DNA from: a virus
Direction: 5' to 3' (one strand)
Virus record (IMG/VR): IMGVR_UViG_3300020195_000129
Coordinates: 1-28,789 of that record
DNA: 28,789 nucleotides
The notes under the pieces are model-generated. The model was not told the DNA's origin and did no database searches. It saw only the letters and a program-made list of their open reading frames with translations. This document shows positions 12,474 through 27,474 of this stretch, piece after piece. The first letter of the stretch is position 1; every line of letters begins with the position of its first letter. The translations under genes and the position numbers were made by a program.

Positions 12474-12878
12474 TCACAGCCCTCTCAATTTGTTGAGGTG
12501 TGCACGGCGTGCGATGCGTGCCCCCATGCTGCTACGCGATTCATTCAGCACGGATTCCATGAACTTCCACTCGCCGATAGGGTGGATCGCGTCAGGATTC
12601 TCGTGCACATGAACCGCGTAGGGAGCCTCTTTGCCCGTAGCAACTGCTACAGTAATAGTGTTGCCTTTTTGCTCAGGCCGTAGCACGCGGATTGAATTGC
12701 GCAGCCGGCCAGGGTGCGGCGCATTTTTGGTCGTGTCGACAGGCGTCCGCTTTTTCATTTCGACGGCTTCAACCTGCATCTCTTGGTAAGCGGCTGCGGC
12801 AAGGTGGTCTGGAAATTTCTTCTTGATTTTTCCGAGGTTCTTGACAACCTGCGAGACGCCGAACATCTTACTTGGCAT
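12474..12878 (-). CDS. HK97 gp10-like tail completion protein
   Basis: The protein has 134 residues from ATG 12878, chosen because GGAGGT lies about five bases upstream; the frame is open further but has no comparable signal. Family features are clear: a Lys-rich N-terminal helix (VVKNLGKIKKKFPDHLAAAA), then KKRTPVDTTKNAPHPGRLRN, the counterpart of the usual K-x-PVDTG-x-L-R-x-S motif, then APYAVHVHE and a C-terminal arginine-rich helix. Proteins of this family join or complete the tail at the head-tail interface. The start overlaps the end of the glycosyltransferase gene by 11 bases, so the glycan cassette lies between this gene and the connector genes it would normally follow. Confidence 0.88.
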   Translation of the reverse strand: MPSKMFGVSQVVKNLGKIKKKFPDHLAAAAYQEMQVEAVEMKKRTPVDTTKNAPHPGRLRNSIRVLRPEQKGNTITVAVATGKEAPYAVHVHENPDAIHPIGEWKFMESVLNESRSSMGARIARRAHLNKLRGL

Positions 12879-14736
12879 CAACGACCTCCCGCAGCACATC
12901 GAGGTAACGAGCGCCGATGTTTTTCCAGTCGTACCGGTGCTGGTATGCGGTAGCGAGCGCCCTCTTGCTGTAGTCCTCTCGGATAGAGGGCTCCCGGTAG
13001 AGCCTATCCAGCGCATTAACGACGCCCTCGTAATCCATCACGCCGCCAATGACATTCACGTAGGGCGGACCGATAGCGGTTTCGGTGCAGGGCACGATCC
13101 ACGAGCCCTCACGTGCCCAGTCTCCGAGGGCGGACCAGTCGGGCAGAATGCACGGAATCTTGCACGCCATAGCCTCCAACGCCGTCAGCCCGAAGCCCTC
13201 GCCCTGCGTCGTGCTCAGCAGCACGTCGAAGCACTGGTACGTTTGCGCCATGATTTCCTCCTCGACGCCATACCACGTCGGTGGTTGCACGAGGATGAGG
13301 CGCTCTGTGATGCCGTAATAAGCGGCAAGCTGCTGGACGTTGATGCCAAGATCCCCGGTCGGCGCAGTGTGCAGAAAGAGCATCGCGTTCGGTGCGTCGA
13401 ACGCGCTTACCCAGTCAGCGAAATACTTCAGCGTAAGATCCCAGCGCTTGCGTGGCTGGTTTCGGTTCACGTTGCCGACGATGAATGCATCTCTGAACCG
13501 CTCGTCCGCAAGCCCTCGTGCGGAGCGCGCATGGTTGCGCGAATGCGGCTTGTAGACGCTGCGGTCAACGCCGAGGGGAATGATTGAGGCCGGCCCTTCG
13601 TAGCCACTCCCTCGCGCCTCTTTCAGCGCGAACTCGGTCCAGAAGATAACATGCGCAACGCCGTCAAGCCAGTTGCTCTGAAAATTCTTTCCGTCGACCG
13701 CAACAACAGCGACGATAGGAACCCCATCGAATTCCTTGAACTGCCGCATCTGCTGCACATACAATGGGATGTTCCACCCGTCGTTCTGTAGCACGACAAC
13801 ATGCGGCTTTGCATAGTCGCACATCCACACAAGACGCCCGACGCCGAAGCCATCGCCTGCGACCGCCGCTGCGAAGATGGGGTAAGGGAATTCGTGTGGG
13901 TCGCCGCGGTAGTTGATGCCCAGCACCGTGACGTCGTAGGTCTCTTTGAGCGTGTCGAGAATGTTGTGCGTTGCCTTCGCAAAGCCGCTCGGGCAGCCAG
14001 CATCCCCGACCCAGAGTAGCCGTTTCTTTGGCTCAACAAACGACCACTCATGCCCCGGAAACGATGGAAACGTGATGAGCGCCCCGCCGTTTGGATTATC
14101 GGCAATCGAGGTAATGTGCCCGATGTGCTGCACAAAGCTCGGCGCTGAGGCCTGAAACCACGTCAGTCCTCGAGCCCCCGCCCAGCGGTGCAATTCTATG
14201 TCGTGCGCGTTGTGCTCGGGCAGGCCGTGCGTTTCGAGCCACTCGGCGATGTCTAAGGCGACCGCAGGCCGCACGGCAAAGCATTGCATGCCCCAGAACT
14301 TCTCGACCGGATATTGCCATTCAACGTTACCCTTTTGCGCGAACTGCGGATAGTCGCCAGAGAAGATGTTCGGCCTGTCGTCTTTGCCGTGTGCGTCGAG
14401 CCAGCGGCTCAGGCTTCCGACAAAGTCTCCGCATACATCGAGGTCATCCTCGAGGTGCACGATCCAGTCCGCGCCCGACACCGCGCCGTGCCGTAGTGCT
14501 GCTGCGCAGTTCCACTTTGCTGAGCGTCGTTCCGTTGGGCGATGCGACCAGACCTTGCTATGCGTCAGTATGATGTTCGCCGTAGGCCATGCTTTTGCAG
14601 AGCCTGAATCGACGAGGTGCAGGCTATGCAGCTGCGGGTGCTTCAGCACACCAGACCGCTTCAGGTTCTCCAGCGTCTCGAACAAATAGTTCGGGTTAGG
14701 GCTTCTGTTGAACGTCGAAATGACAATCGTAATCAT
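12868..14736 (-). CDS. Two-domain glycosyltransferase (GT-A-like N-terminus, GT4-like C-terminus)
   Basis: This is a 622-residue fusion of two sugar transferases. Residues 1-230 resemble a GT-A (family 2-like) domain: MITIVISTFNRSPN at the start, ADWIVHLEDDLD with a metal-binding-type acidic cluster at 96-100, and FWGMQCFAVRP. Residues 240-620 resemble a GT-B family 4 enzyme: LLWVGDAGCPSGFAKATHN, IIPLGVDRSVYKP, and EGFGLTALEAMA (513-524), the nucleotide-sugar binding motif. The donor sugars cannot be told. ATG 14736 is chosen for its ATGA overlap and AGGTG upstream. It forms a three-gene block with another transferase and a methyltransferase inside the structural operon, so glycosylation of virion proteins or of the host surface is a reasonable guess. 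Confidence 0.87.
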   Translation of the reverse strand: MITIVISTFNRSPNPNYLFETLENLKRSGVLKHPQLHSLHLVDSGSAKAWPTANIILTHSKVWSHRPTERRSAKWNCAAALRHGAVSGADWIVHLEDDLDVCGDFVGSLSRWLDAHGKDDRPNIFSGDYPQFAQKGNVEWQYPVEKFWGMQCFAVRPAVALDIAEWLETHGLPEHNAHDIELHRWAGARGLTWFQASAPSFVQHIGHITSIADNPNGGALITFPSFPGHEWSFVEPKKRLLWVGDAGCPSGFAKATHNILDTLKETYDVTVLGINYRGDPHEFPYPIFAAAVAGDGFGVGRLVWMCDYAKPHVVVLQNDGWNIPLYVQQMRQFKEFDGVPIVAVVAVDGKNFQSNWLDGVAHVIFWTEFALKEARGSGYEGPASIIPLGVDRSVYKPHSRNHARSARGLADERFRDAFIVGNVNRNQPRKRWDLTLKYFADWVSAFDAPNAMLFLHTAPTGDLGINVQQLAAYYGITERLILVQPPTWYGVEEEIMAQTYQCFDVLLSTTQGEGFGLTALEAMACKIPCILPDWSALGDWAREGSWIVPCTETAIGPPYVNVIGGVMDYEGVVNALDRLYREPSIREDYSKRALATAYQHRYDWKNIGARYLDVLREVVDAK

Positions 14737-15419
14737 CGCCACACCTGCTGAGGCTGCTCGTTCAGGGGTTTCCAACTTGACGCCCAGTGGTGAATAGCAA
14801 TCGTGTCGGGTTGAATTGCCGCGGACGTCAGCGGCTCATACCACGGATAGGGGTGAAACACCTGACTACGCCGCACCGTAATGCCGGCGATAGTCGTGTC
14901 CCCGTCGCGGCCGTTCCAGCCATTTGCGTAGAGCAGCGATGAGACCAGCCCAGGCCCTGACATGTTTCCATAATCGGGATGTCGAGTGTCGACCTTGCGG
15001 AGCGCCTTCACCTGGTCCTCGAGGAACGGATGCGCTGCACCGCACGCCATCACCGCGTTGTTCGCCCAGCCCTGGCCGGCTCCGATATGCCCGAGGGTGT
15101 AGCTGGTTTCTAGCAGCGGATCAAACCTCTGCACCGCCTCGACATCTGCATCGAGAAACACACCGCCCAGCACGGCCAGAAATTTCAGCCTCGCCCACTG
15201 ACTACAAGCGATGAAATTCCCCTCAGCAATGCGCTCTTCGAGCCACGGCTCAGTGCCGAACAGACGCAGGTTGCCGAGTGTTACGACCATGATTTCGTAG
15301 TCCGGCATCAGCTTCAGCCACGATGTCATGCAGTGTGCGAACATCTCGCGGTGACGCGGCTGATAGCGGTCGCGCTCGGCGTCGCAGATCCACGTCGTGA
15401 TAATACGTTTCGGGATCAT
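14733..15419 (-). CDS. DXD-type glycosyltransferase (GT32-like)
   Basis: This 228-residue protein begins MIPKRIITTWICD, typical of the GT32/capsular polysaccharide family, followed by MTSWLKLMPDYEIMVV. ARLKFLAVLGGVFLDADVEA (residues 76-95) holds the family's DXD metal and nucleotide-sugar site at Asp90-Ala-Asp92. The C-terminal part (NAVMACGAAHPFLEDQV, AIHHWASSW) agrees with the family, where a late His lies near the active site. It probably adds a hexose to a glycan begun or extended by its neighbour. Both ends are four-base ATGA overlaps, so it is co-translated with the methyltransferase and the larger transferase. The donor sugar and the acceptor are unknown. Confidence 0.88.
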   Translation of the reverse strand: MIPKRIITTWICDAERDRYQPRHREMFAHCMTSWLKLMPDYEIMVVTLGNLRLFGTEPWLEERIAEGNFIACSQWARLKFLAVLGGVFLDADVEAVQRFDPLLETSYTLGHIGAGQGWANNAVMACGAAHPFLEDQVKALRKVDTRHPDYGNMSGPGLVSSLLYANGWNGRDGDTTIAGITVRRSQVFHPYPWYEPLTSAAIQPDTIAIHHWASSWKPLNEQPQQVWR

Positions 15420-17258: not shown

Positions 17259-18320
17259 TTAGGCGCGGGTGCCGTGCACGATTCCGCTGTTGCCGTTGTA
17301 GTCCGAGCGGACGCGGGGGATCATGATGCCCATCACGATGTTGTGGATCGTGAAGCCATCGAGCGACGTCCACGGAATGACCGTGGGAGGCTGTCCGACG
17401 ACGATGTCAACGACATCGTTCGTCATCTGCACGAGCGTCGCCTGCTTGCCGACCGCGGCAGCCGGGTAAAGGTCCGCCGAGCGGAACTTGATCGGACGAC
17501 CGCCCGCCTGGATCATCTCCAGGCGCTTCTGGATCGTGTCGGTCGTGTTGACCTTGAAGTCGCCCTGCATCAGGTTCATCGTCTTCGTCCCGACGTAGAG
17601 GTTGTAGGGGCCGTATTTGAAATCGGCCTGGAGCGCGTCGATCATGCCCAGCAGATCAGCGGCCATCGCCGGACCCGTCGTGCCAATCGTGTTCGCGCCC
17701 GTCCAGTCTACCGAGAGGGGGTAGAGGTTGGCGTCGGGCGCGTTGAGCAGGCCGGGAGCCGTGTAGCCTGCGACGTTGAGGTCGAGACCGTCGAGGGTCG
17801 TCGCGCCGTTCAGCGCCGCGTCCTCGAATGCCTCGTTGACGGCACGCGTGCACTGCTGCACGAGCGAGACGTCGAGGGGCGTGCCGATGCGCTGGGACAT
17901 CTTGAGCGTGCGGATGTCCAACTCGAAGCCGTCCGTCGTCAGGTAGATCGGCAGACGGCTCGACAGCACGTTCGGCAACTTGTTCTCGGTGCGCGACGAG
18001 GGCGTCATGACGCGCTGAGCGGCGCCGACGCGGTTCGTCTTGTTCCACTCAATCTGCGTGACGCTGAGCGGGTCGGTCAGGTTGTAGGTGAGGCCCTCGG
18101 CGAGCAGATCGGCCACGAACGTCAGCCGCTGCATTCCGACCTCAACCACCGCCTTGTCGATCACGACCTGCGCCCGATCCGTGAGGGGCGCGAGGGCGCG
18201 AAAGCCCGGAGCGCGCAGGTTGGTGACGTTCAGCTCACCCTCCTGCAACGCCTTGAGCACGACGTCGGACAACGGGCTGTTCTTGCCCATCGCCGTGATA
18301 CGCATCTTGTCAAACGACAT
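17259..18320 (-). CDS. Major capsid protein (HK97 fold, encapsulin-like family)
   Basis: This 353-residue protein has the length and layout of the encapsulin-like phage capsid proteins. MGKNSPLSDVVLKALQEG forms the N-terminal segment, followed by LRAPGFRALAPLTDRAQVVI. SSRLPIYLTTDGFELDIRTL lies in the peripheral region, and a helix (VQQCTRAVNEAFEDAALNG) with an A-domain-like end (PYNLYVGTKTMNLM, DVVDIVVGQPP) completes the fold. Large gene dose is suggested by a perfect AAGGAGG eight bases before ATG 18320. It follows the protease-scaffold and decoration genes, as expected for a capsid module. No long N-terminal delta domain is seen, consistent with a scaffold supplied by the upstream fusion protein. 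The family is confident, the exact subfamily less so. Confidence 0.87.
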   Translation of the reverse strand: MSFDKMRITAMGKNSPLSDVVLKALQEGELNVTNLRAPGFRALAPLTDRAQVVIDKAVVEVGMQRLTFVADLLAEGLTYNLTDPLSVTQIEWNKTNRVGAAQRVMTPSSRTENKLPNVLSSRLPIYLTTDGFELDIRTLKMSQRIGTPLDVSLVQQCTRAVNEAFEDAALNGATTLDGLDLNVAGYTAPGLLNAPDANLYPLSVDWTGANTIGTTGPAMAADLLGMIDALQADFKYGPYNLYVGTKTMNLMQGDFKVNTTDTIQKRLEMIQAGGRPIKFRSADLYPAAAVGKQATLVQMTNDVVDIVVGQPPTVIPWTSLDGFTIHNIVMGIMIPRVRSDYNGNSGIVHGTRA

Positions 18321-18362: not shown

Positions 18363-18803
18363 CTAGATGGTTTCGACGCGGATGCGCGTCAAGACGGTGA
18401 CAGAGGGCTTGTTCTCCAGCGCCACGAAGAGCGCCGTGCCGGCTGCGAGAGCACGCAGCGTGCCGTTGCCGGCCGACTCGAGCTTCACGCCTGCCGCGAT
18501 GTCCTGACCCGACGCGATCAGCATCCAGAACGTCGAGCCGCCGCGACCGATGGACGCCTCCACGAGGTTGCCCGCCGCGTAGTTGTCGTCGACGCCCAGG
18601 TTCATCATCGACTGGTTGGTTGCGACAGCGCGGCCCGTGTCGCCGGCCGCCGTTGCGTGCTTGCGCCACCGGATGACACCGGCGCTGTTGAACCGCTCGA
18701 TCAGATGACCGGGCGTGATGGCCTCGCTTGCGGCGAGATCGTTCACCTGGATGCGGTCACCGCCCAGGTAGACGGTGTTCGGCGAGTAACGCGTGATCGA
18801 CAT
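18363..18803 (-). CDS. Probable head decoration protein
   Basis: This 146-residue protein lies between the protease-scaffold and capsid genes, the usual slot of the capsid-stabilising decoration protein. It is small, beta-rich and Ala/Gly-rich: NDLAASEAITPGHLIERF, then GVDDNYAAGNLVEASIGRGG, AAGVKLESAGNGTLRALAAG, and a final strand pair. This pattern of short strands joined by Gly-rich turns resembles phage decoration proteins that bind capsid three-fold sites. ATG 18803 has GAGGAG eight bases upstream, a signal strong enough for a high-copy virion protein. Identity is inferred from order and composition. Confidence 0.75.
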   Translation of the reverse strand: MSITRYSPNTVYLGGDRIQVNDLAASEAITPGHLIERFNSAGVIRWRKHATAAGDTGRAVATNQSMMNLGVDDNYAAGNLVEASIGRGGSTFWMLIASGQDIAAGVKLESAGNGTLRALAAGTALFVALENKPSVTVLTRIRVETI

Positions 18804-18839: not shown

Positions 18840-20498
18840 TTACTTGGACGCCTGAAGAGCCTTGATGCTCTCGGCGTAGGCGTCGGGAGGTGCGAAGTTC
18901 TCGCCGGCCGCACGCATGCGCGGAATCGGACGAGCGCTGTAGTCGGGAGCGTCGACCTTGGCAATCGCTGCCAGCTTGCGCAACGCGGGGAGGGGCATCT
19001 CCTTGAGTTCCGCCTCGCTGAAGATGCTCTCGGCCGCAACCTTCAACGTGGTGATGAGCGCGGTCTGCTCGGCTTCGTCTTTCGCCTTCGCGTCGGCGAC
19101 GAGCGAGCGGATGGATGCGGGTGCACGCTTGAGGAAGTCGGCCTCATCGAGCACGCGCTCGGTCGAGGCGCGGAGGTCGGTCGTCAGCTTCTCGACCTTC
19201 TCCTCGAGGGACCGCTTGTCGTTGCGGTCGGACTCGGCCTGAGCGCGCTCACGCGCTTCCTTGGCCTTCGCCAGCTTTTCAGCCTCGGCATCGGCCTCAG
19301 CCTTGGTCTTGGCCGCTTCCGTCGCCGTCTTGGCCGCTTCCACCGCCGTCTCGGCGAGAGAAAGGAAATGGGTCAGGCGGTCGTCTGATGCCGCTTCGAG
19401 CATCTTGACGTCGTCTGCCGTGAATCCGCTGCATGCGCAGCTGGTGAGCTTGCTGATCAACACTTTCCGGTCCATGCTGTCCTCCTGGCGGGTTTCTGCC
19501 GCCTTCAACTGTCCAACTCCGTCGCAGGCTTCGCACGGGTTTCCGCCGTGCGCGCCTGAGCCTTTGCACCTCGGGCATTCTTCCGCACCCGCAAGCGCAC
19601 GCTTCACAAAGACCACCTCAGCAGGGACGTCTGAGGGTGCCGCATCGAACAGCTTAAACCCCTGCTTGCTCATCTCCTCGACGAGCGTATCGAGCTTCGT
19701 GCTAGGCGCAGACACCGTTTTCATCTCGCCGCCCTTGTCGAGAATCTTACGCAACGATGTTTGCGCTGCGGGGTCCATCCACTTAGGCATTGAATGCCCG
19801 CCGCCGCTGCTACCGCCTGGATTACCCGGACCACCCTCGCCCCCTGAGTGCCCGAAGTTTCCTGAGCTTGAACCACCAAGCGCCTTAAGATCCTCCGCGT
19901 CGAACGCGAAGACATCCGCCGACGCTGCCGACGCTGCTCGGTGTGCGCCGCAGCCCATTTCAACAGAGCAGGCTCCGCGACCATCCGGCAGGAACGCAAG
20001 GTGGTCTGAGCTAAGCGCAGCCCATGCGGTTTGATACGCCTTGCCGTTGTGCTCGCCGGGCTTCGAGTGCGTCGCGACCATCGCTCCGACGCTGACCTCG
20101 ATCACGGTCCCTGCGCGCAGCTTTGCGACAACATCAGCGCGGCCGAGCGCCTCGAGGCGCGTTGGATCGATATAGGCGTCCATCAACAGGCGCTTGTTCT
20201 CGATGCGCGTGTTGAAAATCGTGCCGATGTATTGCCCATCGAGGACCGTCGGGTCATTGGCGGCGATGTGTATGCCGTTCTTGACTGGGTGCATAAGCAC
20301 CACAGGGCGCCCGTTCCACTGATGGACATTCGCAGACAGCGTTGCGAGCGGGACAAACTCTTTCTCGCTCGCGTTCACGGCATGAATGACGCCCTCCATG
20401 AGCGCGATAACAGGCACGACAAGATGCTCACGCCCGCTAAACATCACAGACTTGATCTTGCCTGCGGTATTCGAAAGAAGATGTCGGATCTCGTTCAT
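18840..20498 (-). CDS. Prohead protease-scaffold fusion (DUF2213-like) with inserted Gly-rich module
   Basis: The 552-residue protein has several parts. Residues 1-195 match the DUF2213 group thought to be prohead proteases of MuF-type phages: MEGVIHAVNASEKEFVPL, GRPVVLMHPV, GTVIEVSVGAMVATHS and LSSDHLAFLPDGRGACSVE. Residues 208-231 are the module SSSGNFGHSGGEGG..NPGGSS shared with the next upstream genes. About 70 unassigned residues follow, then a DnaJ-like zinc-finger segment (CPRCKGSG, CEACDGVG). Residues 370-480 are an Ala/Glu/Lys-rich coiled coil, and a C-terminal helical end completes a scaffold-like half. Fusion of protease and scaffold is common in heads of this kind. ATG 20498 overlaps the upstream stop (ATGA). 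The shared module suggests a link to assembly or proteolytic processing. Confidence 0.82.
   Translation of the reverse strand: MNEIRHLLSNTAGKIKSVMFSGREHLVVPVIALMEGVIHAVNASEKEFVPLATLSANVHQWNGRPVVLMHPVKNGIHIAANDPTVLDGQYIGTIFNTRIENKRLLMDAYIDPTRLEALGRADVVAKLRAGTVIEVSVGAMVATHSKPGEHNGKAYQTAWAALSSDHLAFLPDGRGACSVEMGCGAHRAASAASADVFAFDAEDLKALGGSSSGNFGHSGGEGGPGNPGGSSGGGHSMPKWMDPAAQTSLRKILDKGGEMKTVSAPSTKLDTLVEEMSKQGFKLFDAAPSDVPAEVVFVKRALAGAEECPRCKGSGAHGGNPCEACDGVGQLKAAETRQEDSMDRKVLISKLTSCACSGFTADDVKMLEAASDDRLTHFLSLAETAVEAAKTATEAAKTKAEADAEAEKLAKAKEARERAQAESDRNDKRSLEEKVEKLTTDLRASTERVLDEADFLKRAPASIRSLVADAKAKDEAEQTALITTLKVAAESIFSEAELKEMPLPALRKLAAIAKVDAPDYSARPIPRMRAAGENFAPPDAYAESIKALQASK
19806..19877 (-). repeat. 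Gly-rich module copy 6 (in protease-scaffold)
   Basis: This 24-residue copy begins GGSSSGNFGHSGG and ends NPGGSS. It carries the 17-base core CCTGAGTGCCCGAAGTT (plus strand), identical in four of the six copies. It joins the protease part to the rest of the fusion. Confidence 0.9.
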
Positions 20499-21616
20499 GA
20501 TAATCCCTCTGTGCAGCGGCAGCGTGGGTGCAAAGGAGGGCCCTCGATATCGCCTTTGTAGGTTCCGTCAAGGCGCGCTGTGGTTCCGTCAAGCTCCTCG
20601 CAAAGCGGGCACGCGCCAGGAACGGCAATCCACACACGCCTCTCGCGTCCGGTAAGCCAGCCCTCCTCAACATCGCGAGCCCAGGCTTGACGCTGACCGG
20701 CTGAAACAGCTGCCATGCTTTCGGTGCGTGCTATCAGCTTCGCGCGGGCCTCATCGCCTACCATCTCCATCACACCCGCAACGACTGTGTCAAAGTCCAC
20801 GCCTTCGAACCCGAGGGCTATGGCTTCGCGGATGTTCTTGCGCGTCGTCTTCGAGAGGCCCTTCGCCAGCTTCGCTGCGTGCTTGCGAGCCCAGTCCGCG
20901 GCATCCTCGTTTGTGACGTCGTAGCGGATCTTCGCACTGCGTACGCGGCTGCCTGTTTTCTTGGCGACGCGGAGACCGAGGGTTCGACCGCCCGCATCAC
21001 GAAGCTCATTAGATTCTCGCGGAACCAGCAGAGGAACATAAAACACCACGCCCTGTTGAGGTTCTTCCGCGCTACGCCACTCTTCCCTCTTTTGGTCAAA
21101 TATCCATATATCCGAGATCCACTCTGGTTTGATGTCACCGTGAAACTCGAACTCTTTGTCAGTATGCCCTATGTTCGAGTCCGCACGTAACAACGCTCGC
21201 ACATCATCCGGGATACGCACCCCAAGAATGACAGGATCGGTCATGCGGAAGCCTCGTTCACTCGTGCGTTTCAAGTCTTCTTTTCTTTGTGCCATCAACG
21301 CGTAGTTTGTGGCAGTCACTCTATCTGATGCGATATAGACAACACCAGGCTTTGACTGCTGCCAGTATTGTCCTACCTTTGCTCTCAGTAAGCCAGAGGT
21401 TCTAATCTGTTCGAGGTTTTCTGCCGAGGTTCCATGGAAATACGATTCACTGCCCCCCTCCGAAGCGCTGCTCCCACCCGGATTGCCCTTACCGCCCTCA
21501 CCGCCTGAGTGCCCGAAGTTTCCGCTGCCAGGACCGCCGAGGTCCCTCAGCTGCATGAGAACCGCATCCTCAACAGGGGTGCCCATATGCGACACAAAGT
21601 CAAGTGGGTTCGTCAT
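20495..21616 (-). CDS. Module + ADP-ribosyltransferase-like domain + C-terminal half of MuF minor head protein
   Basis: This 373-residue protein has three parts. Residues 1-26 lead into the Gly-rich module (27-50). Residues 58-190 look like a small ADP-ribosyltransferase-fold domain: YFHGTSAENLEQIRTSGLL with His61, then GVVYIASDRVTATNYA with Tyr94; the third catalytic residue is uncertain, perhaps in EWRSAEEP. Residues 200-373 match the C-terminal part of SPP1 gp7/Mu F-type minor head proteins: ADWARKHAAKLAKGLS, LIARTESMAAVSAGQ, then CPLCEELDG and PPLHPRCRC, the metal-binding cysteine/histidine end. The N-terminal MuF helices are missing here and seem to lie in the gene three upstream. ATGA overlaps bound both ends. 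MuF is secure; the ART call is moderate. Confidence 0.78.
   Translation of the reverse strand: MTNPLDFVSHMGTPVEDAVLMQLRDLGGPGSGNFGHSGGEGGKGNPGGSSASEGGSESYFHGTSAENLEQIRTSGLLRAKVGQYWQQSKPGVVYIASDRVTATNYALMAQRKEDLKRTSERGFRMTDPVILGVRIPDDVRALLRADSNIGHTDKEFEFHGDIKPEWISDIWIFDQKREEWRSAEEPQQGVVFYVPLLVPRESNELRDAGGRTLGLRVAKKTGSRVRSAKIRYDVTNEDAADWARKHAAKLAKGLSKTTRKNIREAIALGFEGVDFDTVVAGVMEMVGDEARAKLIARTESMAAVSAGQRQAWARDVEEGWLTGRERRVWIAVPGACPLCEELDGTTARLDGTYKGDIEGPPLHPRCRCTEGLS
21467..21538 (-). repeat. Gly-rich module copy 5 (before ART-like domain)
   Basis: This 24-residue copy (GGPGSGNFGHSGGEGG, then KGNPGGSS) includes the 17-base core CCTGAGTGCCCGAAGTT. It lies just before the ART-like domain. Confidence 0.92.
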
Positions 21617-22215
21617 AGCTTGCGGAGCCCCATGCCGCCGGTTTTGATGGCGTTGCGGGCGTTCTTGTCCGTGCTGCCAAGCACGCCATAGAGTTTCGCT
21701 TTGTAGAGGTATTTCAGGTAACGGCCGCGATCATAGGTAATGCCGAAGTATTTGCTGTTCTCCGGGTTATCCCATGTCGGATCAACCACTGTGCCGTCTT
21801 TTGTTACTGCCCACGCGTGCTGAAAGGGTAGGTCGCCGAGTTCACCGCTATACGCAATACCCTCAGCATAATCAAGATCCTCGCGCTCCATGACGAGTAG
21901 CGATGCGTTCTTGTAGCATTGCTTCGGCGTACCGCGTCCGACATCAGAGGGCAGAGGCGCAGCAGTATGTTCCTCACCGTAAGCTGCGATGTAGCGCACA
22001 GCATCTGATCCGTTAGAAGAACCGAGTGGCGGAATAAAAGGCATCGCTAATGTGTTCGTCTGAGCACTCGCGAGCGTTTCTTGCCGACGCACCTCAGGGG
22101 TCTCATCGCCCGGCCCGCTGCTACCACCAGGGTTGCCCTCGCCACCCTTACCACCTGAGTGCCCGAAGTTCCCGCTGCCGGGACCGCCAGCACCGCGGAA
22201 CTGCTGCATAATCAC
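21613..22215 (-). CDS. Module + papain/transglutaminase-like Cys-His-Asp protein
   Basis: This is a 200-residue protein. Residues 10-33 are the Gly-rich module, followed by a variable linker. The domain from about 70 has an ordered Cys-His-Asp set: GTPKQCYKNA with Cys100, LPFQHAWAVTKDG with His133, and TVVDPTWDN with Asp145, then KYFGITYDRGRYLKYLY. That order and spacing suits papain-like or transglutaminase-like cysteine enzymes. It could cleave or deamidate a protein; the substrate is unknown. The start is GTG 22215 in a GTGA overlap with the small upstream gene, or the ATG two codons on. It stands between the two presumed halves of the minor head protein. Catalytic class is inferred. Confidence 0.7.
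   Translation of the reverse strand: MIMQQFRGAGGPGSGNFGHSGGKGGEGNPGGSSGPGDETPEVRRQETLASAQTNTLAMPFIPPLGSSNGSDAVRYIAAYGEEHTAAPLPSDVGRGTPKQCYKNASLLVMEREDLDYAEGIAYSGELGDLPFQHAWAVTKDGTVVDPTWDNPENSKYFGITYDRGRYLKYLYKAKLYGVLGSTDKNARNAIKTGGMGLRKL
22117..22188 (-). repeat. Gly-rich module copy 4 (before papain-like domain)
   Basis: This 24-residue copy (GGPGSGNFGHSGGKGG, then EGNPGGSS) carries the same 17-base DNA core as copies 3, 5 and 6. It is only nine codons from the start of its gene. Confidence 0.92.
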
Positions 22216-22385
22216 AGGTCCGGAACCTCATAGGGAACATCGACATCGAGCCCGCGAGCGCGGATCTCATCGCACTCCTTTTCAAGCTGCGCGTACATCG
22301 CCTCGGCCTCGGGGCCGGTCATTGTATGCGGCTTCTTGGCCACAATCTCGACAAGCATACGAGAGATGTCGTCGCTATCGATCAC
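22212..22385 (-). CDS. Small acidic hypothetical protein in the head cassette region
   Basis: This protein of about 57 residues is rich in Asp and Glu (SDDISRMLVEIVAKK, AYAQ-like helix AEAMYAQLEKECDEIRARG, then VDVPYEVPDL). GTG 22385 is chosen because it overlaps the upstream stop as GTGA and has AAGGGG five bases before it; a GTG ten codons upstream is the alternative. No family is recognised. A small acidic helical protein beside a toxin-like kinase might be an inhibitor or antitoxin, but nothing in the sequence shows this directly. Confidence 0.55.
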   Translation of the reverse strand: MIDSDDISRMLVEIVAKKPHTMTGPEAEAMYAQLEKECDEIRARGLDVDVPYEVPDL

Positions 22386-24193
22386 CGGTTCCCCTTTTCC
22401 AAAAATGCGAGCCACAGCGGTTGGTTGTGAATTGTTAGATTACGTCGTGCACCGCTAGCAACAAGCACTGGCGGTTTCCCCGTAGAATCCCACAGCTTCA
22501 CCTTGTCAAACATGCCTTGTTTAACTGCCTCTGGAAACACGCGACTAACGGCCGCGTGCATCTCACGCATAGCTGTCGGGGGAACAACACGACCGAAGCT
22601 CGCTGAATTCGGGTTTAAGGTCCTGCCATCGGCGCGTTGCTGCGCTACCTCAACGGAGGTCGTAACATAGATTGCATCGACCTTATGACCCTTGGAGCGC
22701 AATACAGCAATCTTTCCACCAAGCTTCTCAACCGTCGAATCGCCGGTCCCATCAAGCACTAAGTTTCGGCTAGTGGACGCTGAGCGCATGATAAGCTTCG
22801 CGGAAATATCGCTAGCTTCCTCATGCGTCATCGCAGTTAGCGGGGGTCTCTTGCCGTTGGCATCGGGCGCATATTCAGGCAGGTCGTTGCGGAGATCATC
22901 AACGTTGATCTGAACCGTATTTTCTTTGCCGATGTTTTCTTGCGCGACTAACGTGCTCTTGCCAACACCAGGCGCGCCGCCGAGAATGACTGCAAGCGGT
23001 TCATCAACTGGCGTCGTTCCGCGGAGGGCCTTTGCGATAATTTCCTCGTGAAGCAATTTACGTTCAGGCGTGTAGTTGCCCTTCCCGTCGGAAAACCTCT
23101 CGCGGGTATCGCGGCCATGCTCGAACATCGGCGTGTAGGCTGAGACAGGCTTGCCGATCCAGGCATTACTGTTGCGACTGCTCCCACCAGGATTCCCCTC
23201 GCCGCCCTCACCGCCTGAGTGCCCGAAGTTCCCTGAGCCAGGACCGCCTGCGGCCCGCAGGCGCCCTCGCAGCAGGCCCCGGCCCACCCCCGCGCCAGCC
23301 CGCGCAATGCGCGCCAGCGTGCCCGGCAGCACGCCCAGCAGCGCAGCCTCAACAACAGCGGGGACAACGCTCATGATTTCTTCAATCTCGTCAAGCGTCG
23401 TCGCATGCTGAAGCTTGTCATGCACCTCGCGGCGACCGAGGGCGAACGCATAGCGCACCGCCACTTCTAGGTCAGCCTCGTAGCGGTCAGCGACGGCGTG
23501 TAGCGCGGCCTGGGCGTTGTTTGCGGAGGCGGCCGCTCGAAACTCCTCATCATCAGGATCATCGTCAAGCTCATCGACCTCACGGGCGCCGCCTAACGAT
23601 CTCGTAACGTCTCGGCCCGAGAGTTTGGTAAGTAGTTCCCAGTCACCCTGTCGCTCAATCGTAGCCCCGTGGCGTTTGAACGAGTCCCACATTTTTTGCG
23701 CCGCGGGTTGACGAAACCAAGTATGGCTAGAAATACCCTTATAGCCGAGTTTTTGTAGGTGGACAAGCGCAGCTTCGTACAATTTAACGGCTTCGCCCCT
23801 GCCTTTATCCCGAACACCAACTAGTGAGACGCTGCCATACCCCGGGGGAGGCGTAAATTGTCCGACACGCTCGCCACTTAGCCACTTAGTTCGAACGAGC
23901 ATAGAACCACGACCATCGGGCAAGACGAAGTCGTAATCATCACCATATTCTGTGCTATGCGTCACAGTTACGCCGTGAGGTAAATCTGTTGACGAACCGC
24001 TTCCGCCCACCTCACCCGGCCTGCCCGCATGCCCGAAGTTCCCTGAGCCGGGACCACCTGCCGCTCGAAACTCCTCATCCTCAGGATCATCGTCAAGCTC
24101 ATCGACCTCACGCCACGGGCGCACAGGGCCGACATACTCCACCGTTTCGATGAAGTCAGTCATGAGCGCGTCGAGGTCTTCTATTTTTTCCAT
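22382..24193 (-). CDS. Composite head protein: MuF N-terminal part, GNAT-like domain and zeta-toxin-like kinase, with two Gly-rich modules
   Basis: The 603-residue protein is a mosaic. Residues 1-45 end in REVDELDDDPEDEEF. A Gly-rich module (46-65) is followed by a GNAT-like domain to about 205 (SVSLVGVRDKGRGEAVKLYE, LQKLGYKGISSHTWF). A second copy of REVDELDDDPDDEEF then leads to helices (ALHAVADRYEADLEVAVRYA, GTLARIARAGAGVGRG) like the N-terminal part of MuF minor head proteins. A second module near 316-339 precedes a zeta-toxin-type kinase: GGAPGVGKST (Walker A, near 402-411) and INVDDLRNDLPEY with the catalytic-type Asp and Arg. Zeta kinases phosphorylate UDP-GlcNAc; here the substrate is unknown. 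ATG 24193 is preferred to GTG 24202; both overlap the upstream gene. The domain calls are good; the composite nature is striking. Confidence 0.78.
   Translation of the reverse strand: MEKIEDLDALMTDFIETVEYVGPVRPWREVDELDDDPEDEEFRAAGGPGSGNFGHAGRPGEVGGSGSSTDLPHGVTVTHSTEYGDDYDFVLPDGRGSMLVRTKWLSGERVGQFTPPPGYGSVSLVGVRDKGRGEAVKLYEAALVHLQKLGYKGISSHTWFRQPAAQKMWDSFKRHGATIERQGDWELLTKLSGRDVTRSLGGAREVDELDDDPDDEEFRAAASANNAQAALHAVADRYEADLEVAVRYAFALGRREVHDKLQHATTLDEIEEIMSVVPAVVEAALLGVLPGTLARIARAGAGVGRGLLRGRLRAAGGPGSGNFGHSGGEGGEGNPGGSSRNSNAWIGKPVSAYTPMFEHGRDTRERFSDGKGNYTPERKLLHEEIIAKALRGTTPVDEPLAVILGGAPGVGKSTLVAQENIGKENTVQINVDDLRNDLPEYAPDANGKRPPLTAMTHEEASDISAKLIMRSASTSRNLVLDGTGDSTVEKLGGKIAVLRSKGHKVDAIYVTTSVEVAQQRADGRTLNPNSASFGRVVPPTAMREMHAAVSRVFPEAVKQGMFDKVKLWDSTGKPPVLVASGARRNLTIHNQPLWLAFLEKGNR
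23177..23248 (-). repeat. Gly-rich module copy 3 (before zeta-like kinase)
   Basis: This 24-residue copy (GGPGSGNFGHSGGEGG, then EGNPGGSS) directly follows the MuF-like helices (GRLRAA) and precedes the kinase domain. It has the 17-base core shared by copies 4, 5 and 6. Confidence 0.92.
23532..23584. repeat. 53-bp direct repeat, copy A (inner side of the GNAT cassette)
   Basis: Matches 24060-24112 with a single mismatch and is offset from it by 528 bases, exactly 176 codons. It encodes REVDELDDDPDDEEFRAA. Together the copies bracket the first module and the GNAT-like domain, in frame. Confidence 0.93.
23999..24058 (-). repeat. Gly-rich module copy 2 (RPGEV variant, before GNAT-like domain)
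   Basis: This 20-residue copy reads GGPGSGNFGHAGRPGEVGGS and differs from the others after GNFGH. At DNA level it shares CCCGAAGTT but has CCGCAT instead of CTGAGT in front of it. Confidence 0.9.
24060..24112. repeat. 53-bp direct repeat, copy B (outer side of the GNAT cassette)
   Basis: Partner of 23532-23584. It encodes REVDELDDDPEDEEFRAA and runs straight into the module. Similarity stops sharply at both ends, as expected for a duplication made when the intervening segment was gained. Confidence 0.93.
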
Positions 24194-25161
24194 TTGCCCC
24201 ACGCAGCAGGATCGATGTAAGACTTGATGGCGACTTCAGGTGTGTTGCCGAGATGCTTTGAAACAGCGGTCGAGATTCGCTTGCGCTCCCCTTTGTAGGC
24301 TTCCTCTGTTTTCGGCTTCTGCGTTCTCGTGATGAGGCTCAGTGCTTTGGCGGTGCCGTGATAGGTGCGGAAGTCTTTGGGTATGAACGAGGGGTCGGCA
24401 ATCGTCTTCATGTAGCGCCCTGCTCTACCGTCGCTCGTGTCAAACAACGTCCCCGGGGATGCAAGGCGCGGAGTGAGAATTTTCGCCAGACGGGCATCGT
24501 CAACCGTTTTATCGATCTCGACGCCCTTCTTTCCGACGAAGGAAAATGTGACACGTGAGCCACTGATGCTAACATGCTCGCTTTTCAGCGTGCTTGCGCC
24601 GAACGCCTCGACGTCGCCGCCCCGGTCCCGCTTGGCCCCGGGCCTGAAACCGGTCCGGTCTATCAAGTATAGCACAGATGCGTCCTCGCGGGTCGCTAAA
24701 TTTTCTGAATCGAGGTCCCTTATGATGGACTTGCGGATGGCCGGCAGCTTATTTGAGAATTCTCTGACCCGAGCAAACTTTACGGCGGCATTCTTGTCCG
24801 TCTGCGCGGGGTTCATCTTCGGCTGCGTGCGCCCCTTCTCGTCGACGCCTGTGCCAAAGTAGGGCGCGTCAGGATCGTCGGAGATCATGACATCCGTCCA
24901 TGCAGGCGGGAAGCCTAGCTCTTTCATGCGCGCTGCGTCGGCCTTTGTTGCCGGACGCAGGTTTGACTGGTCCTTCAGCGTGGGACCCTTTGGTGAGCGC
25001 TGGCTCTTTGGGTTGCCGAACGCGTCAGGAGCGCTGCCGCCTGGGTTGCCCTTGCCGCCCTCACCGCCCGCATGGCCGAAGTTCCCTGAGCCTTTGCCGC
25101 CGAGCAGCAACAGCGCGAACAGCCGCGCACCAACCGCAGGGATCTTCAAAACGTCAAGCAC
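24181..25161 (-). CDS. Gly-rich module + type IB DNA topoisomerase
   Basis: This 326-residue protein starts at GTG 25161, overlapping the previous stop by eight bases; an in-frame TTG at 25206 is a weaker option. The module lies at residues 21-43. The rest matches bacterial/viral topoisomerase IB: PPAWTDVMISDDPDAPYFGT, DEKGRTQPKMNP, FSNKLPAIRKSIIRDL, then RTGFRPGAKRDR with catalytic-type Arg173, the FVGKKG turn with Lys211, KDFRTYHGT with Arg265, and LGNTPEVAIKSYIDP with the nucleophile Tyr315. All catalytic positions appear present, so it should relax supercoils by nicking one strand. Topoisomerase IB is uncommon in phages, and its place in a structural operon is odd. A role in packaging or in DNA release after injection is possible. 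Confidence 0.87.
   Translation of the reverse strand: MLDVLKIPAVGARLFALLLLGGKGSGNFGHAGGEGGKGNPGGSAPDAFGNPKSQRSPKGPTLKDQSNLRPATKADAARMKELGFPPAWTDVMISDDPDAPYFGTGVDEKGRTQPKMNPAQTDKNAAVKFARVREFSNKLPAIRKSIIRDLDSENLATREDASVLYLIDRTGFRPGAKRDRGGDVEAFGASTLKSEHVSISGSRVTFSFVGKKGVEIDKTVDDARLAKILTPRLASPGTLFDTSDGRAGRYMKTIADPSFIPKDFRTYHGTAKALSLITRTQKPKTEEAYKGERKRISTAVSKHLGNTPEVAIKSYIDPAAWGKWKK
25033..25101 (-). repeat. Gly-rich module copy 1 (before topoisomerase IB)
   Basis: This 23-residue copy (GGKGSGNFGHAGGEGGKG, then NPGGS) lies near the N-terminus after a short hydrophobic segment (ARLFALLLL). It mixes features of the two variants: HAG like copy 2, GEGG..NPGGS like the rest. Confidence 0.9.
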
Positions 25162-25501
25162 GGTAGACCCCGATCTCGTCAGGTGCGCCGTTCGGAAAGA
25201 ACACAACCTTGCCTGCGATATCCGTCACCTGCCAGTGCGTGCGGTAGGTATGCACAGCGCCGTAAACGCTCGCAGGAAAGACGAAGTCGCTGGCCGCTGG
25301 TGTGTAGAAAACCTGCCCTGGGTAGAGCGCTTGATCGCGCACGTCGACCGTGCCCGTCGGCACCACGACAGCACCGAGAGCATTGCGCAGCTTTAGCACG
25401 ACCGTCATTCCCACCAATGTAGTTGGCACCCCATCGATACGGAGCGTGAAGGGTCCGAGGGGTCCGGTCCATCCCTCAACGATTGACAACAGCATGGTCA
25501 T
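25154..25501 (-). CDS. Small beta-rich structural protein (possible BppU-like domain)
   Basis: This 115-residue protein has a run of predicted strands: GWTGPLGPFTLRIDGVP, TTLVGMTVVLKLRN, VVVPTGTVDV, then GQVFYTPAASDFV, YRTHWQVTDIAGKVVFFPNG. The pattern resembles the small beta-sandwich found in phage adaptor or BppU N-terminal-like proteins, where a modifier of a linear gradient or limit is displayed at the virion surface. ATG 25501 is in an ATGA overlap with the repeat protein gene, which suggests they act together. A virion role is likely; the specific one is not known. Confidence 0.65.
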   Translation of the reverse strand: MTMLLSIVEGWTGPLGPFTLRIDGVPTTLVGMTVVLKLRNALGAVVVPTGTVDVRDQALYPGQVFYTPAASDFVFPASVYGAVHTYRTHWQVTDIAGKVVFFPNGAPDEIGVYRA

Positions 25502-27474
25502 CCCTCGAAAGTCGTTGATCTAATGGGCTCAGTAAACGCCTGCGTGTAATCAGGCATCTCAGAGATTTGCGAGCGCTGGGGCTCACTTGTGGTCTGCGTG
25601 GTCAGCAAGATGTTTGAGGGAAAAGCCCCCTCGAACAATACCTCGGGCGCAAAGACCTGCGCAGCTGATGCAGCAAACCCGGTATACAGCGCGTTGCCCG
25701 CCGGCAGCACGACAGGCGCAAAGACTTGCGCACTGCCTGCAACCGTGCCAGCGGTAATCGTGAACGTGAGCGAAGGCGCGTGGACGATAGAGCCAGCAGC
25801 AATCGTCGGTGCACTGAGGGAAAAGCCGAGCGTTGGCGTCGTGACTGTCGCGGTGCTGACAATAAACGGCGACGCGATTGAAACCGCCCCGGCGCTCAGC
25901 AGTGGCGCATAGAGCGAAGAGGTTCCCGGAACCGTTGCGCCCTCAAGCGTGACAGCGCCCGCCGAGATCAAGGGCACCGATAGCGTTGCTTCAGAGGCGA
26001 TAAACTCTGTGCTAACGGCGTTAGACCCAAGCACTAACGGGGCGTAGACGGACGCAGTTGAGGCGAGCGTCGAGGTCGTGATCGTCCGCGCTACAGAGGG
26101 TGCGTAGACGTTCTCAGTCGAGGCGAGCGTCGAGGTCGTGATCGTCCGCGCTACAGAGGGTGCGTAGACGTTCTCAGTCGAGGCGAGCGTCGAGGTCGTG
26201 ATCGTCCGCGCTACAGAGGGTGCGTAGACGGATGATCCGCCCACAACAGTTGCGCCTATAAGCGTAACAGGACCGGCCGCAATCTCGGGTGTAAAGAGTG
26301 TTACAACGCTCGGCAGATGCGCGGTTGAGAGATTATTTCCAGCTGGCGCGACTACCCCAGCAAAGACGCTTGAGCCAGAAGAAATAACAGGGGGCGAGAT
26401 CGTAACCGCGCCCGCTTCAACGCCCGGCCCGTACACGCTCGTGTTGCTTGCGAGAGATGCAAGGCTAATGTTCAGCGCAAGCGAGGGGGCAAAGACACTA
26501 GACGTCGACCCGAGTGTTGCAGTTATCGCGCTAAGCGTTACACTCGGCGTAAACGTCGCGCTGCCCGCAGCAATCGTGGGTAGGTTAATTACAAAGGCTT
26601 GCGTAGGCGCAAACGTCTGCGCAGTCGATGCAATCGTCTCGGTCGTAACGTTGAGACGTAATGCGGGCGGAAATAAGGACGCGCCGCTCGTGACCCCAAC
26701 AAGCGACACGCCCTGTGCCCCGACTTCAGGGGCAAAGAGAGCAGCGACCGACGCAATGCTCGGCGCAGCGATAGTGCGCGCAACCGAAGGGGTAAAGACC
26801 GTCGAGCCGCTTGAGATGAATGCTGGGTTAAGCCCGCTGGCAGAGACAACCTCAGGCGCGTAGACCGCAGATGTCGCACCTATTAACGGGGTCGTCAGCG
26901 TAACCACGCCTGCCCCTACCGTTGGTGCGTAGACTACAGCGCCAGTGGAGACCGTCGCAGTAACGGCGTTAAGCGCAGCCGCAGGCGCAAAGACCTGTGA
27001 TGCTCCGGCAACCGTCGGAGTCGTGATAGCGAACGTAACGGCCGGAGCGGTAAGCGATACACCCGAAGTAATCGTTGCGGTCGTGACGTTTAGCGCAAGC
27101 GAGGGTGCGTAGCTAAGCGCGCTGCTCGCAATCGTGCTTGTCGTGACCCTGTGCTCTAACGTCGGCGCGTTGACGCTTGCGGACGAGGCAATCGTTGGTG
27201 CTGCAACGCTGAGCGATGCTGTCGGCGCGAATACCTGCGAGCCGGGCGCAACTGTTGCCGTCGTAACACTGAGCGCAACATGCGGCGCGAAAACCTGCGA
27301 GCCAGATGAGATCGTTGATGCGTTGAGACTGTTCCCGGAGAGCGCAACAGCAGCAAGAAGGACGAAATGTGCTGCCCGCTGGCGTCTCGACCGCGCCTCT
27401 CCAGACACAGGAACAGCCGCTGTTGGCGGTGTTGTGCCGAAGGGCTCAGTTCCGAATGGAAACGATCCAAACAT
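25498..27474 (-). CDS. Repeat-rich virion surface protein (about 27 repeats of 20-23 residues)
   Basis: The 658-residue protein has a short N-terminus (MFGSFPFGTEPFGTTPP), a basic stretch, then about 27 imperfect repeats with the pattern IASxAxVFAPxVxxxVTTxT. The repeats run from about residue 55 to 625. Their Ala/Ser/Thr/Val make-up and fixed length suggest a beta-solenoid or string of small strands, as in fibrous appendages. Three units near the middle are almost identical in DNA (60-bp period), pointing to recent expansion. The C-terminus (ILLTTQTTSEPQRSQISEM, then ending TTFEG) is distinct. ATG 27474 follows the upstream stop by six bases. It is probably an elongated head fibre or appendage, but no family name can be given. 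Confidence 0.75.
   Translation of the reverse strand: MFGSFPFGTEPFGTTPPTAAVPVSGEARSRRQRAAHFVLLAAVALSGNSLNASTISSGSQVFAPHVALSVTTATVAPGSQVFAPTASLSVAAPTIASSASVNAPTLEHRVTTSTIASSALSYAPSLALNVTTATITSGVSLTAPAVTFAITTPTVAGASQVFAPAAALNAVTATVSTGAVVYAPTVGAGVVTLTTPLIGATSAVYAPEVVSASGLNPAFISSGSTVFTPSVARTIAAPSIASVAALFAPEVGAQGVSLVGVTSGASLFPPALRLNVTTETIASTAQTFAPTQAFVINLPTIAAGSATFTPSVTLSAITATLGSTSSVFAPSLALNISLASLASNTSVYGPGVEAGAVTISPPVISSGSSVFAGVVAPAGNNLSTAHLPSVVTLFTPEIAAGPVTLIGATVVGGSSVYAPSVARTITTSTLASTENVYAPSVARTITTSTLASTENVYAPSVARTITTSTLASTASVYAPLVLGSNAVSTEFIASEATLSVPLISAGAVTLEGATVPGTSSLYAPLLSAGAVSIASPFIVSTATVTTPTLGFSLSAPTIAAGSIVHAPSLTFTITAGTVAGSAQVFAPVVLPAGNALYTGFAASAAQVFAPEVLFEGAFPSNILLTTQTTSEPQRSQISEMPDYTQAFTEPIRSTTFEG
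26041..26220. repeat. Three tandem 60-bp repeats within the repeat protein gene
   Basis: Copies at 26101-26160 and 26161-26220 are identical over all 60 bases. The copy at 26041-26100 differs only in the first 20 bases. Each equals one 20-residue unit (VYAPSVARTITTSTLASTEN), so number changes keep the frame. Confidence 0.97.

Follow-up and report, generated by a model that had tools for sequence, protein, structure and literature searches.

Module copies and their genes in the window

The stretch of viral DNA analysed here (the window) is a complete IMG/VR record of 28,789 bases. Between positions 19806 and 25101, its minus strand encodes six copies of a glycine-rich module of about 20 residues, distributed over five consecutive genes, with the decoration and major capsid genes following shortly downstream (Table 1). 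An earlier note on this DNA had reported six such copies in the proteins of this region, and this was borne out: the string GGNWSNGGNAAYTTYGGNCAYKCNGG is matched exactly by five of the six copies and not once in 100 dinucleotide shuffles of the window, and the sixth, located in the gene for the protease-scaffold protein, has SSGNFGH instead. Only the copy at 24058-23999 takes the global consensus form GHAGRPGEVGGS; the remaining five are a local variant containing GGEGG.GNPGGSS.

Table 1. Module copies, module-bearing genes and neighbouring head genes of the window
Feature	Positions	Strand	Remarks
Module copy 1, GGKGSGNFGHAGGEGGKGNPGGSA	25030..25101	(-)	precedes topoisomerase IB
Module copy 2, GGPGSGNFGHAGRPGEVGGS, global consensus form	23999..24058	(-)	precedes GNAT-like domain
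Module copy 3, GGPGSGNFGHSGGEGGEGNPGGSS	23177..23248	(-)	precedes zeta kinase
Module copy 4, GGPGSGNFGHSGGKGGEGNPGGSS	22117..22188	(-)	follows leader of ~10 residues, precedes papain-like domain
Module copy 5, GGPGSGNFGHSGGEGGKGNPGGSS	21467..21538	(-)	precedes ART-like segment and MuF
Module copy 6, GGSSSGNFGHSGGEGGPGNPGGSS	19806..19877	(-)	between gp21-like protease and scaffold
Leader, module, topoisomerase IB	24181..25206	(-)	PF01028 E 3.9e-25, PF21338 E 1.3e-8
Leader, module, GNAT-like, helical arm, module, zeta-type kinase	22382..24202	(-)	PF06414 E 4e-23
Short leader, module, papain-like (C..H..D) protein	21613..22215	(-)	motif reading and alignment
Module, ART-like, MuF	20495..21616	(-)	PF04233 E 7.3e-9; TIGR01641 SPP1 gp7 E 4e-6
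DUF2213 protease, module, CxxCxGxG/coiled-coil scaffold	18840..20498	(-)	PF09979 E 1.9e-6
Head decoration protein, next gene downstream of protease	18363..18803	(-)	phrog_766 E 2.5e-9
Major capsid protein	17259..18320	(-)	PF19774 E 1.3e-13; phrog_771/264 head

Pfam matches are significant for four of the partners that had been read by eye (topoisomerase IB, the zeta kinase, MuF and the DUF2213 protease), whereas the ART-like, GNAT-like and papain-like assignments are weaker. The protein encoded at 22382-24202 matches the PHROG minor head protein phrog_16619 (E 4e-32) and combines two conflict domains, GNAT-like and zeta, in a single polypeptide, as in polyvalent proteins; its GNAT-like identity, assigned by eye and below Pfam significance, is plausible. 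The ART-like segment reached E values of only 0.08-0.27 against Pfam PARP, and its weaker reading as an ART is suggested by an HGT...Y...E pattern and by homology to other module-borne ART-like segments. Similarly weak is the assignment of the putative papain-like protein, which has no Pfam match and an AF2 model with a pLDDT of 37, and whose C..H..D pattern is kept in two relatives (L051 and L077).

In the AF2 model of the DUF2213 domain, most of residues 21-170 exceed a pLDDT of 90, and the best PDB matches of the domain in Foldseek are T4 gp21 (5JBL, E 6e-4) and then herpesvirus proteases. H70, S136 and H166 are invariant across 21 protease homologues. By its predicted fold and conserved catalytic His and Ser, the product of 18840-20498 belongs with the prohead proteases of the gp21/assemblin type. 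When the protease was modelled together with the module, the latter was disordered and undocked. It follows the catalytic domain in 7 of the 21 homologues and is absent from the other 14; it has therefore been inserted where protease and scaffold meet and does not belong to the enzyme proper. Between the module and the coiled-coil scaffold, residues ~305-336 contain a DnaJ-like CxxCxGxG zinc motif; in homologues without the module (L019, L124 and L085), similar Cys motifs directly follow the protease domain.

No close relatives of the window protease were found in viral contigs. L241, a relative found via its major capsid protein (53% identity), stops within the scaffold and has no cargo block. 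Elsewhere in the window, a 635-aa gene amid the tail genes (12868-14775) encodes a family-4 glycosyltransferase domain (PF20706 GT4-conflict, E 2.8e-9) and is kept at 61% identity in this relative (L241/G053), while a 658-aa protein (25498-27474) with many degenerate repeats of ~18-25 residues (..ASTAQVFAPSLA..) matches the minor tail protein family phrog_8501.

Conservation and occurrence of the module

The module has the consensus GG-x-GSGNFGH-x-GRPG-x-VGGS, of which ...SGGEGG.GNPGGSS is the local variant; its extended form is [LIV][RK]x[LKD]-GGxGSGNFGHxGRPGxVGGS-[AG]P.G. Among the modules detected, H10 and G12 are invariant, G1, S5, G6, G15 and G18 occur in 98-100%, N7 in 92% (His in 5%) and F8 in 80% (otherwise Y, W or H), and R13, P14 and V17 are common; because some core positions were fixed in the initial scan, variation in columns 4-12 is somewhat under-counted. 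The core is flanked on its N-terminal side by a weak [LIVF][RK]x[LKDN] motif and on its C-terminal side by a Gly/Ser/Ala tail of about seven residues, and outside -4/+7 the information content is at noise. A cut motif of the gp21 type ([LI]xE or AxE) was not found: there is no invariant Glu, and E occupies column 16 in only 35% of modules.

One to five modules are present per ORF, spaced by at least about 117 residues in 95% of cases, and in 95% of cases at least 111 residues lie C-terminal to the last one. The first module has a median position of 45, and many are internal or come after more than 180 residues. Conservation does not differ between modules no more than 15 residues from the N-terminus, those preceded by a longer leader, internal ones and those that follow an anchor (Kruskal p = 0.60). 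The earlier remark that a tandem set like that of the window seemed unusual understated the matter, as other carriers have up to 12 copies per phage.

A position-specific matrix, which gave no matches in reversed proteins, retrieved at least 326 module instances in at least 287 distinct contexts from roughly 90 uncultivated viral contigs, with 190 distinct sequences among the 326 modules listed. A degenerate pattern matched at least 119 viral-contig stretches, compared with one for a reversed pattern of equal composition and degeneracy; these scan figures are a lower bound on prevalence, and the contigs may be fragments. In 84,980 prokaryotic genomes, the degenerate pattern had 22 matches, of which only four were full modules; the other 18 lack the second half and are chance matches. 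The sole cultured carrier among the four is an Oxalobacter prophage. The consensus 25-mer had no match in 50,697 GenBank phage records or in 72,556 plasmids, and these empty results are informative because the consensus query was unmasked, recovering 301 local modules at comparable database size, and the 25-mer positive control works. The bare module has no significant match in PHROG, NCBIfam or the PDB, the strings GSGNFGH and NFGHAG were not found in the literature searched, and no description of the module was found among the literature and families searched. To date, then, the module has been seen in uncultivated phages and in a handful of genome contigs. In its full form it is almost restricted to phage contigs and prophages, which answers the concern that the motif might be generic low-complexity sequence.

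The uL2/L8 loop of the ribosome is an extended segment contacting RNA. The only PDB match of the module, at a non-significant E of 1.2, is to this loop (GGGNHQHIGKPSTI; 11he_L8 residues 212-232), with which it has G.GN[FH].H.G[RK]P...[VI] in common; the resemblance is probably a coincidence.

Partners, genomic location and selection

Among 261 downstream segments, ADP-ribosyltransferase families were the most frequent Pfam matches at E <= 0.001 (12 ADPrib_exo_Tox, 10 ART-PolyVal, 4 ART and 3 PARP, in overlapping categories), with further MuF (8), zeta (8), topoisomerase IB (6) and PI3/4-type kinase (5) domains as well as GNAT, PBECR2, CdiA_C, nuclease and metallopeptidase-like domains. Upstream, 74 segments had a length of 90 aa or more, and they included portal (15), DUF2213 protease (9) and MuF (7) domains; all these tallies count distinct segments, not independent events. 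MuF thus occurs on either side of the module, and in the window it is C-terminal. These partners support, beyond the window, the reading that the module joins head proteins to varied cargo, and the motif search with partner tabulation proposed in the earlier note has thereby yielded at least 326 modules with diverse C-terminal domains and head-gene neighbours. When units were compared in pairs, both arms were homologous in 10, the left arm only in 144 and the right arm only in 111. Arms are homologous singly far more often than jointly, and domains have therefore been exchanged at the module. The right arms form about 170 families among the modules listed, 130 of them singletons and the majority of them lacking a Pfam match. 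One upstream segment matches an intein splicing domain and one, possibly the same, a PT-HINT domain; such segments may offer another route to self-processing. In L060:1296-3179, a stretch consisting of SASDVYECGE.DFKED and the module is present twice within one protein, probably a recent duplication of a protease tail plus module.

Each of 24 larger records, like the window and the prophage of Oxalobacter, has all its modules on a single strand and mostly in one block. Head genes were identified in 18 of these; there, 61 of 78 modules are no more than 5 kb from a portal, protease or capsid gene, where 29.9 would be expected at random. The module block usually comes after terminase and portal and before protease, decoration and capsid; G008, G011 and G045 are exceptions, with a few modules far from identified head genes. 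In G011, a stand-alone 159-aa protein (L023, G011:35231-35707) carries a module about 18 kb from the portal gene of the same record, a placement that a head-cargo block does not account for. The Oxalobacter paraformigenes HOxBLS prophage has the order terminase, portal, minor capsid protein, tagged polyvalent protein, phrog_1028 protease, capsid, and its tagged protein of 1,961 aa contains PBECR2, ART-PolyVal and a helicase. A second large polyvalent-type protein (WGR and ADPrib_exo_Tox; L158:17-3073), upstream of the terminase of this prophage, is without the module.

The proteases of the carriers are diverse: DUF2213 was found in 19 of 48 carrier records, XkdF-type S78 in 2-4 of 48, S78 in 2 of 23 and S49 in 0 of 22, and those of Oxalobacter and G005 belong to other families (by PHROG). 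A universal maturation protease of carriers was sought, and none was found, as the families differ among records.

The earlier note had seen similarity at both protein and DNA level and proposed a mobile or selected tag. Across 67 records, codon identity at conserved residues between copies within a record is 0.385, compared with 0.347 expected from the codon usage of the same genes. Codon identity is thus near background while the peptide is kept, which argues for a selected peptide and against mobile DNA; a mobile DNA cassette was rejected on these grounds. The similarity at DNA level stands, weakly, for the window but not for the class; in the window, codon identity is 0.57 versus 0.40 expected, and its modules may be of more recent origin or partly homogenised. 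At variable columns, copies within a phage agree more often than copies of different phages (0.66 versus 0.485; 1,000 permutations, mean 0.487, maximum 0.519) in a comparison that left out pairs with homologous flanks, and this persists in pairs with codon identity of at most 0.4 (0.637 versus 0.482). Our reading of this co-variation is that each phage has one partner to which its copies are all matched, although it could derive partly from old duplication.

A candidate tag for head cargo

Our preferred explanation, with slightly better than even confidence, is a portable tag for head cargo of tailed phages, which some component of the procapsid would recognise in trans for loading, release or ejection. 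A disordered tag of ~20 residues would lie directly N-terminal to every effector domain destined for the capsid. The phage itself would encode the reader, with the scaffold/protease core as the likeliest candidate and the portal or MuF as possible ones, such that any domain behind the tag would be treated as head cargo and kept in the procapsid. The maturation protease would probably then free the cargo by acting on or close to the tag, and the cargo would be ejected together with the DNA. At the level of sequence the case for a tag is strong: the sequences show conservation, purifying selection, co-variation of the copies of a phage, exchange of domains at the tag, a location among head genes, and head-lumen anchors upstream with conflict enzymes downstream. 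Binding by a head component, a virion location of tagged proteins, cleavage and injection are what we infer. A release site by itself accounts for the anchors and polyproteins but not for the equal conservation in proteins that start with the module, whereas a docking tag by itself accounts for those but looks superfluous on portal fusions. A tag that is both bound and subsequently cut would reconcile docking with release, and the co-variation within phages is expected under the tag reading, since a single partner per phage would read all copies. The idea of packaged cargo enzymes, already raised in the earlier note, fits the partner tallies, the gene position and the virion mass spectrometry of a homologous cargo domain: the window zeta domain is 34% identical to part of cyanophage P-SS2 ORF030 (MuF-zeta-ART), which was detected in virions with 96.5 peptides (PMC2784084). 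ORF030 is without the module, however, and cargo loading is thus not generally module-dependent. Also speaking against a tag, it seems redundant where the cargo is fused to portal or protease, a few modules are distant from identified head genes, and the protease and capsid families of the carriers differ, which does not point to a single conserved receptor.

We consider it rather unlikely that the module is instead a cleavage site or recognition peptide of the maturation protease, splitting polyproteins of up to five effectors and freeing cargo from portal, MuF or protease anchors. Such a role would suit its placement: every domain boundary has exactly one module, with gaps starting at ~117 aa, the module separates cargo from head domains that face the lumen, and in protease-scaffold genes it comes right after the catalytic domain, where assemblin-type enzymes carry their release site. 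It would also suit the disorder in the AF2 model and the fold that the window protease has in common with T4 gp21, which trims the T4 internal proteins (PMC7411985). However, ~20 conserved residues make a long footprint for a cut site, and conservation is no weaker at 1-15 residues from the N-terminus, where cutting frees nothing. Moreover, 14 of the 21 protease homologues have no module although their phages bear modules elsewhere, and the protease families of carriers differ. Of the capsid-targeting or processing linker suggested earlier, a pure cleavage linker is disfavoured by this N-terminal conservation and by the optional presence in the protease.

A signal acting after packaging, guiding or priming each effector for passage via portal and tail or across the host envelope, would explain why the tag persists on cargo that is anchored to portal or protease in any case and for which a loading signal would seem superfluous, and why it is Gly-rich, disordered and always N-terminal to the cargo; we think this improbable, as the within-phage co-variation favours a phage partner over a host factor. 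Very improbable is an inert Gly-rich spacer or recombination joint that tolerates fusions and gives DNA homology for shuffling. Glycine content, the shuffled arms and the excess of codons shared between copies in the window (0.57 versus 0.40) agree with it, but N7, F/Y/W8, H10, R13, P14 and V17 are held, class-wide codon identity near background preserves little DNA homology, and four full modules in 84,980 genomes and a single match of the reversed control are not the pattern of generic linkers. Chance low-complexity sequence or an annotation artefact, for which only the Gly-rich composition speaks, is already refuted by the shuffle and reversed controls (0-1 matches) and by purifying selection.

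The candidate tag resembles the capsid targeting sequence (CTS) of T4, which is carried by IPI-III and Alt and cut by gp21, in being a short peptide on head cargo that includes an ADP-ribosyltransferase, and the window phage likewise encodes a gp21-fold protease. The T4 CTS is a strictly N-terminal propeptide of 10-20 aa (PMC7411985), in contrast to a module of ~20 aa that is often internal, occurs up to five times per protein and 12 times per phage, and is common to unrelated phages. It would act much as a capsid targeting signal does, but as neither a strictly N-terminal position nor the cut motif was found, we do not class it as a T4-type CTS. In P1, the first 30 residues of DarB target a reporter to the capsid (PMC9024508); DarB is an injected multidomain helicase with an N-terminal signal, and the tagged Oxalobacter protein also ends in a helicase, but the P1 signal was reported for one protein (PMC9024508), and the module occurs in none of 50,697 phage records. 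Effector fusions to MuF, portal and capsid protease have already been described (PMC5512222, PMC9503650, PMC5576092), and the ART-PolyVal, PBECR2, zeta and 2H repertoire encoded among head genes is like that of polyvalent proteins and MuF polymorphic toxins. Consistent with polyvalent proteins, at least two conflict domains per polypeptide are present in the window and in the Oxalobacter PBECR2-ART-helicase protein, both located among head genes. A term search of PMC5512222, PMC9503650 and PMC5576092 found no common junction peptide, whereas here one peptide marks the junctions. A single sequence-conserved peptide at the junctions across unrelated phages was not found described in the literature searched.

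MIX and FIX are marker domains of T6SS effectors. Like these, RIX and the signal peptides of eCIS, which lie N-terminal to many injected effectors (PMC10435454, PMC11495950), the module precedes varied cargo; those markers, however, are folded domains or N-terminal signals of tail-derived machines, whereas the module is a disordered 20-mer in the head genes of intact phages.

More tentatively, and with somewhat less than even confidence, the module may represent a sorting code across phage lineages, in which one disordered tag and a cognate procapsid reader would serve swappable effectors, up to a dozen per phage. On this reading, it would be a natural modular protein-delivery platform, one not found among sequenced isolates. 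The same tag precedes dozens of unrelated enzymes among the head genes of many uncultivated bacterial viruses and has the appearance of a general label for packing or delivering proteins that the virus carries into its host. The selection of head cargo by phages is understood in few systems (T4, P1 and giant phages). A 20-residue peptide makes the question of targeting versus cleavage testable, and Oxalobacter paraformigenes is a cultured bacterium whose prophage bears the module. A tag recognisable in sequence would allow the injected arsenal of uncultivated phages to be listed directly from metagenomes.
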